In this document: positions 2,688 through 15,396 of the stretch, piece by piece
Position numbering within the stretch: the first letter of the stretch is position 1
Layout: each line of letters starts with the position of its first letter
DNA from: Leptogranulimonas caecicola
Lineage (GTDB): Bacteria > Actinomycetota > Coriobacteriia > Coriobacteriales > Atopobiaceae
Length of the DNA: 64,000 nucleotides
Assembly: GCF_023168405.1 (NCBI RefSeq)
Contig: NZ_AP025285.1
Location: forward strand, 1,920,001 to 1,984,000
Direction: 5' to 3'
The notes under the pieces: model-generated
Databases searched by the model: none
What the model was told of the DNA's origin: nothing
Seen by the model: only the letters and a program-made list of their open reading frames with translations
Program-made: the position numbers and the translations under genes

Positions 2688-3740
2688 TCACACAAATTCC
2701 CTCATCCTTCCATAAACCATTTGCGCAATCTTCTTTGGATCATACTTTTTCCACTGCTCGATACAGTTTTCTCGTAGGCTAAAACGCTCTGAATCACTTT
2801 TTGACGTATATTCTCTTATTAATTCCACCAAGGACTCATCTTTACTGAATGGATAACTGTATCCTGTCACTCCATCTTCCAGCATCTCATCATAGAACTG
2901 CCATCTTGCAGCAAGTACTGGAGTCCCTGCTGCGAGTGCATCAATAATAGTTCCAGGCATTCCTTCCCAAGGGCAAGATGTTGGAAAGAGCAGGGCATCA
3001 TATGATGCAATTACATTTACACTTTTTTCAGGATCAACCACTCCTAAGTATTTAACATGCGCGGACTTATCTAAATGGAATTGAAACTCATCTTTGTAGT
3101 CATCATCAACCTGACCATAAATATCAAGATTATAAGGGCCCTCTCCCTGACCAGCAGATTTATTCAGCTCCTCAATTGCCTCGATTGCCACATTAATACC
3201 CTTGTCCTTTCTCACGCGACTAAAGGTACAAAAGTTCCAACCACTGGCTACTATTGTCTTCTGTACTGCGAGTCGATTAACAAAGTACTTGAAGTTAGGC
3301 AAAAGTTCCGCGTTATTAATACTAAGCTCTCTCAATTCTTCCACTAGTTGTTCTGATTCCACCCAGTTAATCGCAAAACTAGTTAAATACTGAACCCATT
3401 TCGGGTGTTTTTTCACTTCATTTGCCAAAGAGCCACCAATTAAGTTCTGGAACACCGGAATATTGAACGTTTTAGTAATTAAGCTCATAATTGGATACAG
3501 AGCGCGACGACCATTTCCAGAGACCATAAGTACTATGGCATCACATTGCCTAGCAGCTCTTAGCAATGCGGCCATAATAAATGGAGCTCTATTTTTCCAG
3601 TCAACTGTATCTACAACTTGGACGGAACCGTCTCCGTAGATCTCAGACAGCAGCCTTTCCATATTCCGAGTTTTAATCGTCTGACCATCAAAGTAATCCT
3701 GGTCATTCGCCACTCTTCCTACAAGCGCAATTTTTTGCAT
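2688..3740 (-). CDS. Glycosyltransferase family 4 (GT-B fold)
   Basis: A 350-residue transferase. The N-terminal half starts MQKIALVGRVANDQDYFDGQ, the acceptor-side Rossmann domain. The C-terminal half has WNFCTFSRVRKDKGINVAIEAI, a phosphate-binding segment common in GT4 enzymes. It is followed by YDALLFPTSCPWEGMPGTII, which carries the donor-binding glutamate (PxxxEGxP), and by DALAAGTPVLAAR. The start is supported by GGGCGAGAAGGCGT just upstream. It lies between the nucleotide-sugar dehydrogenase and the polymerase, so it most likely builds the same polysaccharide repeat unit. The exact sugar is not deducible. Confidence 0.8.
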   Translation of the reverse strand: MQKIALVGRVANDQDYFDGQTIKTRNMERLLSEIYGDGSVQVVDTVDWKNRAPFIMAALLRAARQCDAIVLMVSGNGRRALYPIMSLITKTFNIPVFQNLIGGSLANEVKKHPKWVQYLTSFAINWVESEQLVEELRELSINNAELLPNFKYFVNRLAVQKTIVASGWNFCTFSRVRKDKGINVAIEAIEELNKSAGQGEGPYNLDIYGQVDDDYKDEFQFHLDKSAHVKYLGVVDPEKSVNVIASYDALLFPTSCPWEGMPGTIIDALAAGTPVLAARWQFYDEMLEDGVTGYSYPFSKDESLVELIREYTSKSDSERFSLRENCIEQWKKYDPKKIAQMVYGRMREFV

Positions 3741-13392: not shown

Positions 13393-13469
13393 GCGGCGTT
13401 ACCTCAGCTGGATAGAGGGTCTGACTACGAATCAGAACGTCACAGGTTCGAATCCTGTACGCCGCACCA
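13393..13469 (+). tRNA. tRNA-Arg(ACG), copy 1
   Basis: A 77-base cloverleaf including CCA, with acceptor stem GCGGCGT/ACGCCGC. The anticodon loop CTACGAA between TCTGA and TCAGA gives anticodon ACG, read as inosine after modification. It is identical base for base to the copy at 13646-13722. Confidence 0.97.
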
Positions 13470-13645: not shown

Positions 13646-13722
13646 GCGGCGTTACCTCAGCTGGATAGAGGGTCTGACTACGAATCAGAACGTCACAGGT
13701 TCGAATCCTGTACGCCGCACCA
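13646..13722 (+). tRNA. tRNA-Arg(ACG), copy 2
   Basis: Identical over all 77 bases to the tRNA at 13393-13469, with anticodon ACG and encoded CCA. It has its own promoter and terminator, so both copies are likely functional. It is the last stable gene before the AbiF region, a position often used as an integration target. Confidence 0.97.
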
Positions 13723-13735
13723 GTTTAATTTATTC

Positions 13736-13756
13736 AGGCCCTGCGGGGCCTTTTTT
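13736..13756 (+). terminator. Terminator after tRNA-Arg copy 2
   Basis: AGGCCC-TGCG-GGGCCT followed by a T6 run. Confidence 0.85.
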
Positions 13757-13864
13757 CTTGGACAGATGCTTTATCTATTCACGCAAGTTAACCCAGTATC
13801 ATTACTAGCTTATCTATTCACACCCCTAGTCCTCCCCTCCTCATTCATTCTATGAACATTCAAC

Positions 13865-13896
13865 TTGAGCGCCCCACGTTTAGTCTCGTGTAAACT
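13865..13896 (+). promoter_or_regulatory. Possible promoter of the AbiF-associated RNA
   Basis: TTGAGC at 13865-13870 is followed by TGTAAA (13889-13894, spacer 18) or TAAACT (13891-13896, spacer 20). Either would start transcription near 13902, upstream of the hairpin-terminator preceding the abi gene. Confidence 0.4.
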
Positions 13897-13899
13897 TAT

Positions 13900-13996
13900 T
13901 CGAGTAGCTGAACTGTGTGGTAGAGTAATGTCAGTGAACCCGCCATGCCTCTCTCTCATTTTTTGAGATGATGCAAACTCTGGCGGGTGTTTTTTA
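13900..13996 (+). ncRNA. Putative structured RNA upstream of the AbiF-family gene
   Basis: There is no convincing reading frame here. The 3' part folds as CCCGCCA (13939-13945) paired with TGGCGGG (13981-13987), enclosing a small TCTCA-TTTTT-TGAGA hairpin, and is followed by TGTTTTTT. The U-run ends about eight bases before the abi start codon and merges with its AGGGG ribosome-binding site. The order small RNA, terminator, toxin-like gene matches the layout of RNA-antitoxin systems. A conserved RNA upstream of AbiF/Abi_2 genes has been described in other bacteria, but I cannot align to it here. Start and end are estimates. Confidence 0.5.
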
Positions 13997-14004
13997 GGGG
14001 TTAC

Positions 14005-14967
14005 ATGCAGTACCGTAAGCCGTGGCTTTCGTATGACCAACAAGCCGACAAACTTGCAGAACTTGGTCTCATCTTTAATAGAACTGACCTGATCACTCGT
14101 CTTGAAGACGTAGGTTATTACCGACTAAGTGGAAATTGGTACATATTCAAACAGATATCTATAGACGGCTCCGAATCTTTTATCCCGGGAACACGGTTTA
14201 ATAAGATATGGCAGTTATATACGTTTGATAGGCAACTAAGACTTGTTGTCCTTGATGCCATCGAGCGTCTTGAGATTTATATGCGAACTCAGCTTGCATA
14301 TAGACTGGCACAGAAAGATGGCCCGTTTGGTTACCTCAACGCTGCCAGCCTTCCAAATATGAACGAAAAGATCCATTGCGGTTTTATCTCAAGGTGCTTT
14401 AAAGCCTACGATCGCTCGAAAACGCTTTTCACAGACCACTTTAAAGAAAAGTATGGGGATTCCCACGAGTTGCCACCGTACTGGATGTTGGTCAACATCA
14501 TGGATTTTGGAATGATGTTGACTCTTTTCCGCGGTTCTTCAAATGAAGTAAAAGGGGGTATAGCCAACGAAATTGGCGTGCCTTATCTCGTATTAGAGTC
14601 ATGGTTGATTACATTAAACACCGTGCGTAATATCTGTGCTCATCATGATCGCTTATGGAACCGACGCCTGGGCAACAAAACAAAAATCCCTAGAGGCCGC
14701 AAGTACCCCGAATGGCATCACCCCTACGAGGTCAATAACAGCTCCACATTTACGCTGCTAACTATTCTTGGCTATATACTCGAACGCATAGCCCCTGGCT
14801 CTTCTTGGCATACAAAAATGCTTCAGTTAATTAACACCAGAACCCTGAGGACTTACAGCTTATGGGATTTAATGAAGGATGGAAAACGTGTCCCATATGG
14901 GGAAGGTGGCTTGAATTGTAAAGAGCCATCTTCTCCGATCACAGATCTAACAAATCTAACCCTTTAA
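14005..14967 (+). CDS. AbiF/AbiD-family (Abi_2) HEPN abortive-infection protein
   Basis: A probable RNase toxin of phage-defence type. The early VGYYRLSGNWYIFKQ segment (residues 36-50) is a hallmark of the Abi_2 family. YTFDRQLRLVVLDAIERLEIYMRTQLAYRLA is the central helical core. TVRNICAHHDRLWNRRL carries R208-x4-H213, a HEPN ribonuclease active-site motif that is intact. I choose the ATG at 14005 because AGGGG precedes it by five bases; an upstream ATG at 13987 lies inside the terminator stem. The gene is AT-richer than the surrounding backbone and follows a tRNA pair, both consistent with transfer. The adjacent putative RNA may act as its antitoxin. Confidence 0.85.
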   Translation: MQYRKPWLSYDQQADKLAELGLIFNRTDLITRLEDVGYYRLSGNWYIFKQISIDGSESFIPGTRFNKIWQLYTFDRQLRLVVLDAIERLEIYMRTQLAYRLAQKDGPFGYLNAASLPNMNEKIHCGFISRCFKAYDRSKTLFTDHFKEKYGDSHELPPYWMLVNIMDFGMMLTLFRGSSNEVKGGIANEIGVPYLVLESWLITLNTVRNICAHHDRLWNRRLGNKTKIPRGRKYPEWHHPYEVNNSSTFTLLTILGYILERIAPGSSWHTKMLQLINTRTLRTYSLWDLMKDGKRVPYGEGGLNCKEPSSPITDLTNLTL

Positions 14968-15000
14968 GTTTGAAATCATATTTATCCCTACTTACTTGGC

Positions 15001-15396
15001 TTAAAGGGCCTTGCTCATGGAAGAGTTCTCCAGGATATAGGGGCATTCTGCAGCCATGAGAAGCTCCAAGAGGTCCGAGAGCGTAGTGACACCCTTTAGG
15101 TCTTGGGTGAGAACCAAAGCCTCTTGACCCGGGGCACAACGGAGGGCAGCCCAAGGTTCCTGTGTCTTGCATAGGGTGACTCGCCGGTGGAGGGGTGCGG
15201 GCTTCTCGGCACCGGGGGCATTGGAGAAGGGCTGGGAGCGCCTCAGGGTTTCATAGAGGTAGATGTTGTCGGCGGAATCGTAGACGGCGATCTCGACAAT
15301 GTCGCCCTCTAGATTGTGAGCTATACGAGCTACCTGCTGGATTACCTCTGAGGGCTGGGCAGGATGCTTGGAAGCCTTGCGACGATGATGTGTCAT
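15001..15396 (-). CDS. Unknown small protein under a LexA-like operator
   Basis: A 131-residue protein I do not recognise. The ATG at 15396 is chosen because GAGAGGAGATAGC precedes it. The N-terminal 15 residues are basic (THHRRKASKHP), suggesting nucleic-acid contact. The rest alternates acidic and hydrophobic segments: IVEIAVYDSADNIYLYET, then TTLSDLLELLMAAECPYIL. No signal peptide or membrane span is visible. Its promoter, TTGTAC (15461-15466), 17 bases, TATGTT (15438-15443), overlaps a perfect palindrome that matches a LexA box, so DNA-damage induction is likely. It is divergent from the patatin-like gene. Confidence 0.75.
   Translation of the reverse strand: MTHHRRKASKHPAQPSEVIQQVARIAHNLEGDIVEIAVYDSADNIYLYETLRRSQPFSNAPGAEKPAPLHRRVTLCKTQEPWAALRCAPGQEALVLTQDLKGVTTLSDLLELLMAAECPYILENSSMSKAL

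Follow-up and report, generated by a model that had tools for sequence, protein, structure and literature searches.

The abiF RNA motif is said to originate with Weinberg et al. in 2017. Modules consisting of an AbiF protein and an abiF RNA are a known kind of phage-defence module. In C. difficile, the AbiF_Cd protein is reported to be toxic in a manner that depends on residues R202 and H207, and the RNA RCd22 to neutralise it both in cis and in trans, through binding (PMC12373285). According to a review, each monomer of PbAbiF binds one AbiFr RNA and AbiF cuts single-stranded RNA (PMC12737573). The PbAbiF double mutant R210A+H215A is described as inactive (PMC12373285). AbiF and its RNA have also been proposed as the ancestors of Cas13 and its crRNA (PMC12373285, PMC12737573).

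We analysed a locus of the same kind in a 64,000-nucleotide stretch of the Leptogranulimonas caecicola contig NZ_AP025285.1 (hereafter, the window). The locus is very probably an RNA-neutralised AbiF RNA-toxin module, carried on a small cassette that some relatives have and others lack. Features of the window were assessed at the level of protein family, predicted fold, catalytic residues, conserved RNA structure, promoter conservation and presence or absence of the cassette. Their coordinates are listed in Table 1.

Table 1. Features of the AbiF locus (positions refer to the window)
Feature	Position	Strand	Basis
AbiF cassette, 1220 nt	13775..14994	+	Sister species has 113 nt in its place
CGTGTAA box, confined to group A; candidate regulator site or upstream promoter	13887..13893	+	Overlaps the promoter candidate of the sequence-only reading
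Extended -10 element TGG-TAGAGT of the RNA	13918..13926	+	TGnTAnnnT in 20/27 distinct upstreams
Predicted abiF RNA, ~63 nt, antitoxin candidate	13933..13995	+	RF03085 match; RNAfold; 5' end placed from the -10 element
abiF hairpin, doubling as terminator stem	13939..13988	+	Group A alignment and pair count
Terminator U-run	13990..13995	+	Sequence; T-rich in relatives
GGGG, likely ribosome-binding site	13997..14000	+	Sequence
AbiF (Abi_2, HEPN) ORF, 320 aa	14005..14967	+	PF07751 E 1.4e-50; PADLOC AbiD 8.7e-59; 8vz6_A E 6e-30; Foldseek 8vz6_A E 1.8e-13
HEPN catalytic motif R208-N-I-C-A-H213	14626..14643	+	R208, N209, H213 invariant in 21/21; opposite R210/H215 of PbAbiF
Conserved C-terminal tail (MGFxxGWxxCPxW type), in another frame than the ORF	~14847..14921	+	Alignment of relatives; pLDDT <50 at residues 289-320

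The protein belongs to the Abi_2 family. The Pfam model PF07751 matches the 320-residue ORF with 172.6 bits (cut-off 25.6, E 1.4e-50), and the Abi_2 domain is present as a whole, spanning residues 33-219. The ORF is also matched by the PADLOC AbiD model (8.7e-59), which takes three other Abi_2 proteins tested as well, while NCBIfam has no family for the window protein. Residues R208, N209, H213 and H214 are invariant in all 21 aligned proteins. The only convincing solved relative by sequence is 8vz6_A, annotated as "Abi family protein" (E 6e-30, residues 3-277), and the alignment places R208 and H213 opposite R210 and H215 of this protein, which is PbAbiF. The AlphaFold2 model of the window protein has a mean pLDDT of 81.4. 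Its only Foldseek match at E<=0.001 is 8vz6, the PbAbiF dimer with bound ncRNA (E 1.8e-13, TM 0.75/0.80), and the window protein is predicted to adopt the PbAbiF fold over most of its length.

The hairpin preceding the gene consists of an invariant clamp (CCCGCCA/TGGCGGG), an inner stem (TGC/GCA), a conserved pyrimidine stretch, CT(C/A)TC, and a covarying distal stem. The predicted transcript has a folding energy of -24.6 kcal/mol (RNAfold, z -4.96), and only one of 200 shuffled sequences is as stable. A consensus terminator scan, which allows loops of 3-8 only, missed the hairpin and its U-run (13939-13995). In a 361-base search (13720-14080), the Rfam model RF03085 covers the hairpin at full length with 25.9 bits (E 0.014). 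This value lies below the gathering score of 37, which is a statistical cut-off and not a biological feature. A search of the strain's whole 2.0-Mb genome at E<=10, in which scoring covered 150 of 1239 first-look candidates, returned this RF03085 match and no other (E 0.0188). As sub-threshold matches at E<=10 are found by the same search in 6 of 14 control genomes, the score alone is insufficient, and score, position and strand together carry the claim. Over 18 related loci, five matches at E<=1 (27.8-34.3 bits) are listed, none of which exceeds the cut-off. Judged from sequence, the RNA upstream of the window abiF gene is an abiF RNA.

An initial sequence-only reading had described an Abi_2 protein with an intact HEPN motif (R208-x4-H213) and, directly before its gene, a hairpin with a U-run, and had taken the two for an AbiF protein with its upstream abiF RNA. 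All of this was borne out: the covariance model that it had named as a check finds the RNA on the plus strand, and the pairing is supported by covariation and fold in addition to the model.

Relatives of the protein, from either of two Abi_2 clades, occur in 42 of the 140 family genomes searched (E<=1e-10) and on nine named contigs from Olsenella, Atopobium, Collinsella and other Coriobacteriales. In viral contigs, three stretches fit a pattern, and none encodes a relative of the window protein. Among relatives picked by protein similarity, the hairpin precedes 28 of the 29 homologues with a readable start (distinct upstream regions), as counted with a pattern written after inspection of the upstreams; partial homologues without a start (L032, L035 and L039) were excluded, and L032 and L039 were later matched by the covariance model R1 described below. 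The one exception is L002, the second Abi_2 gene of the same genome. The hairpin comes in three forms: A (n=12, including the window) has a long apical stem, B (n=11) a short one, and C (n=5) is distant and has the clamp CCCCGC/GCGGGG. Beside the fixed clamp, the elements CCT, UGC/GCA and AAAC are near-invariant.

The three groups were sliced by exact coordinates per group; joint MAFFT alignment of A and B misaligned the apical part. The group A alignment (A3) contains ten sequences and comprises a 7-bp clamp, a 3-bp inner stem and a 7-bp distal stem, with 96.4% of cells paired against 37-44% in versions slid out of register. Its covariation score is 0.207, compared with a shuffled mean of 0.125, and is reached by none of 500 shuffles; eight cells are changed on both sides, a number as high in 6 of 500 shuffles. 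Two of the five measures are unremarkable, namely the four pairs with compensatory change (reached by 36 of 500 shuffles) and the ten further pair types (as high in 69 of 500). Because the outer clamp is invariant in group A, it gives no covariation signal either way, and only the distal stem covaries. Group B alone (A4) has no compensatory pairs; group C (A5) has two, from five rows of which two have the same sequence over the stretch.

Of 27 distinct upstreams, 20 carry an extended -10 element, TGnTAnnnT, whose end lies 12-13 nt upstream of the hairpin (9 of 11 in group A, 11 of 11 in B and 0 of 5 in C). Mononucleotide shuffling gives a mean of 0.47 and a maximum of 3 in 500 rounds, the pattern having been chosen after the sequences were seen. 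The seven upstreams without the element include all of group C. In the window, its position would set the start of the RNA near 13933 and its length at ~63 nt, with the abiF hairpin itself acting as the terminator stem. Group A also has a box of sequence CGTGTAA or CATGTAA, which occurs in 6 of its 11 distinct upstreams at a distance of 44-46 nt from the hairpin. The 16 upstreams of the other groups lack this box, which may correspond to a second transcription start. A consensus sigma-70 scan returned no promoters in 13700-15050. A promoter ~95 bases before the terminator had been suggested from the letters of the window; this placement is probably wrong, as the comparison favours the extended -10 element ~65 nt before the U-run.

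The C-terminus of the window protein differs from that of its relatives. A terminal tail is conserved in 19 of 20 aligned relatives, the remaining one, L015, ending early; it has the form MGFxxGWxxCPxW in groups A and B and MGFPxxW in group C, and its MGF motif is retained in the 19 even at 28-30% identity. The window ORF has no in-frame copy of this tail, its last ~40 residues being out of frame relative to the other proteins, and AlphaFold2 predicts residues 289-320 with low confidence (pLDDT <50). The in-frame tail is a feature of the clade and is not known to be required for an AbiF-abiF RNA system. The gene appears intact through the HEPN domain, and the altered C-terminus may have crippled the toxin. 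The protein had earlier been called complete, a description that fits the HEPN domain and a frame open to 320 residues but not the last ~40 residues.

The RNA and the toxin gene travel together. Both flanks can be aligned with G028, which is from a different species of the same genus (89% and 95% identity); between them, 113 nt with no convincing match stand in place of the segment 13775-14994. As these 1220 nt are missing between aligned flanks, RNA and toxin are present or absent as one unit. The GC content of the ORF is 0.435, compared with 0.573 for the window. Two identical tandem tRNA genes, tRNA-Arg with an ACG anticodon by reading, are found at 13393-13466 and 13646-13719. The copies share an identical 78-base stretch and both have a match in G028, so they are not a product of the cassette insertion. 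No integrase was seen among the listed ORFs of the window, and no obvious repeat in the cassette junctions inspected by eye.

RF03085 exceeds its cut-off in one of 396 genomes sampled from the phylum and reaches E<=0.1 in 15. Nine matches elsewhere in this sample were inspected: a T-rich stretch follows in eight (by eye), and an Abi_2 frame is present at five (profile). When 395 genomes of the order were searched with R1, a covariance model trained on ten group A RNAs, the window RNA included, 35 matches were obtained in 31 of them. These include the ten training RNAs, and the search used stricter filters, with which weak matches may be lost. Of these matches, 23 adjoin an AbiF gene or AbiF fragment (21 of 30 fetched loci plus two by coordinates). 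The window pair is thus not a lone actinobacterial example. AbiF is absent from the downstream sequence read in eight cases (L080, L085, L086, L087, L091, L101, L102 and L103), and two matches are located 177-537 nt from a contig end (L093 and L089). The two remaining matches were judged false, one in G223 being a bare hairpin and one in G135 (L099/L110) falling within a coding region. Among the solo RNAs, L103 is degenerate and L102 has lost the U-run; the others retain a promoter-like element and the stem.

Solo abiF RNAs for which AbiF is not downstream were recorded at L102, L104, L106, L107, L108, L109 and L111. Downstream of L111 is a SIR2_2/NB-ARC protein; an AAA_14/DUF4143 gene lies downstream of L102 on the opposite strand; and at L104 the RNA precedes a start codon with a few residues that read as AbiF-like. 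A weak second R1 match is present in the window at 3387-3412 on the plus strand (15.1 bits, E 0.017).

L002 (G000:C1:1394925-1395527, minus strand) is 24% identical to the window protein. Its leader contains two hairpins (z -2.70) and is matched by neither R1 nor R3, the class-2 model described below, although relatives carry a class-2 RNA; we do not assign the L002 hairpins to class 2. Through L002 we reached a sister clade of Abi_2 proteins, which includes 20 of 61 proteins in the tree and is split off at 100/100 support. A sample of 20 Abi_2 loci with weaker scores was inspected, and a common hairpin plan could be named in 13. It consists of a 7-bp clamp of changing sequence, a 5' bulge and a CUC-UACGU-GAG-type tip, followed by a separate terminator hairpin. 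An example is found at L130:1081-1168 on the minus strand; the loci L121-L140 and L141-L170 lie upstream of sister-clade Abi_2 genes.

A MAFFT alignment of the class-2 hairpin fell out of register, and ten rows were instead aligned to a model seeded from three in-register ones. The resulting alignment leans to its own seeded structure, with 99.0% of cells paired and 8 of 10 pairs changed on both sides (n=10). On all five measures it exceeds every one of 500 shuffles, and sliding it out of register lowers pairing to 33-51%. R3 recognises 12 of the 20 loci, ten of the 12 being its training set, and four of the eight unmatched loci form a subclade. In 14 rows (the 13 loci and L002), 7-base arms hand-picked for pairing have 6.86 of 7 bases paired with their own partner and 4.43 with those of others. 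Rfam searches at E<=5 over 16 loci found no family for this RNA; they returned an unrelated RNase P and two weak matches, one of them to DicF, which overlaps the L123 RNA (23 bits, gathering score 48). R1 gave no matches over 21 loci.

R3 yielded 56 matches in 48 of 395 genomes of the order. At least 33 have an Abi_2 domain downstream on the same strand, at least 32 of them at a distance of 119-164 nt; ten of the linked matches are training loci, leaving at least 23 of 46 others. Thirty R3 loci were fetched, of which 22 carry an Abi_2 protein or fragment and eight do not. Some solo class-2 RNAs are located a few hundred bases before AAA_21 (L150, L166) or SIR2_2 (L160) genes; these neighbours may reflect chance within defence islands or a swapped partner. 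Two tandem class-2 matches precede a single Abi_2 gene at G303:C3:409140-409177 and 409383-409425, an arrangement reminiscent of type III antitoxin repeats.

RNA class follows the protein tree. Of the 32 proteins labelled abiF, 30 share a single supported clade with 31 members, the remaining two, both of group C, sit in a neighbouring clade, and no abiF label occurs within the class-2 clade; the labels require 7 changes, compared with 25.1 when shuffled, a value as low in 0 of 200 rounds. There is about an even chance that the two Abi_2 clades of the order are each held in check by an RNA class of their own, with class 2 being a second, unrelated antitoxin RNA without an Rfam family, and that both classes, which also occur solo, could protect in trans or guard other defence genes. 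No description of the class-2 RNA was found in the literature searched, which is no proof of its absence. The AbiF covariance models of Zilberzwige-Tal et al. 2025 may already cover it, to judge from PMC12804078. This second class is the part most worth following. If real, it would mean that the RNA partners of Abi_2 toxins have been of more than one kind, a point relevant to the transition from antitoxin RNA to guide.

For the window locus, the antitoxin role of the RNA is proposed by analogy with RCd22/AbiF of C. difficile (as reported in PMC12373285) and with PbAbiF, and the steps of transcription, RNA binding, neutralisation and phage trigger are modelled on these relatives of the module. 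The extended -10 promoter would drive an RNA of ~63 nt that mostly stops at its own abiF hairpin, and occasional read-through past the hairpin would yield abiF mRNA. The abiF RNA would accumulate, bind AbiF and block the HEPN RNase; as in PbAbiF, the protein probably forms a dimer in which each subunit binds one RNA. Loss of the RNA, for instance when a phage disturbs transcription, would free the RNase to cut RNA, and growth would stop.

The altered tail gives weight to a different reading, in which the locus is a decaying copy of the module; the RNA would still be made, the tail-altered protein would be inactive, and the locus would serve as a solo antitoxin RNA or be idle. The shifted frame over a tail that nearly all relatives keep, together with the eight R1 matches without a downstream AbiF, lends this some credit, and it is compatible with the family assignment. 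The Pfam domain and all catalytic residues are intact, however, the frame remains open to its end, the RNA, the -10 element and the ribosome-binding site look intact, and the frame difference, seen in one strain, may be a base-call error. Decay is a minority possibility, though a serious one. It is less probable still, and in our view rather unlikely, that the hairpin acts in cis alone, as an attenuator of abiF transcription, with no role in trans. A hairpin with a U-run is a terminator, and its place between promoter and gene is conserved; yet a plain terminator needs neither a fixed clamp nor near-invariant CCT, UGC/GCA and AAAC elements, and RCd22 is reported to act in trans and to bind the protein (PMC12373285).

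A Cas13-like role, with the RNA as a guide aiming AbiF at foreign RNA, was also considered, in view of the HEPN kinship and the published descent of Cas13 from AbiF (as summarised in PMC12737573). The RNA is a single motif with no array and offers no spacer-like free segment, its variable part being the distal stem, which is kept paired by compensatory changes. The idea was rejected for the window RNA on account of this covarying, maintained stem, and we consider it very improbable. An RNA-neutralised module is thus retained as the preferred reading.

In its parts and their order, the window pair matches AbiF_Cd/RCd22, which makes an RNA-neutralised HEPN RNase with read-through control most likely. 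Both loci feature an Abi_2 HEPN toxin with an R-N-x3-H motif, an upstream abiF RNA, one promoter before the RNA and a terminator before the toxin gene. RCd22, as described in PMC12373285, contains two abiF motifs and a separate terminator, whereas the window RNA has one motif that doubles as the terminator; AbiF_Cd/RCd22 belongs to a prophage lysis module, whereas the window pair is on a 1.2-kb cassette beside a tRNA-Arg gene. Unlike in AbiF_Cd/RCd22, the tail of the toxin is out of frame in the window copy. The PbAbiF-AbiFr complex (PDB 8vz6; Zilberzwige-Tal et al. 2025, via citing papers) shares the predicted fold over most of the length and the catalytic residues, at ~25% identity in a structural alignment in which the two were compared as proteins, without RNA. 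RF03085 and the window RNA have in common the clamp stem, the inner stem, the pyrimidine stretch and an A-rich 3' bulge; the window RNA has a longer apical stem and scores below gathering.

Resemblance extends to type III toxin-antitoxin systems such as ToxIN, AbiQ and CptNI, in which an RNA antitoxin, a terminator and an RNase toxin are reported in the same order, but which have another toxin structure and tandem RNA repeats where the window has a single motif (PMC12373285). A terminator is present between RNA and toxin at the window locus (hairpin and U-run, 13939-13995), and tandem RNA repeats are absent, with one RF03085 match in 13720-14080. The label "type III-like", applied to the locus from sequence, accordingly fits its order and terminator but not its lack of tandem repeats, the single motif being the terminator stem. 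With respect to Cas13 and its crRNA, neither a repeat-spacer array nor an unpaired guide segment is found at the locus, which has a single motif whose variable segment is a covarying stem. In a lineage nearly missed by the Rfam cut-off (one of 396 sampled phylum genomes above it), the relatives of the window locus provide a minimal form in which one RNA hairpin is both the antitoxin candidate and the terminator.
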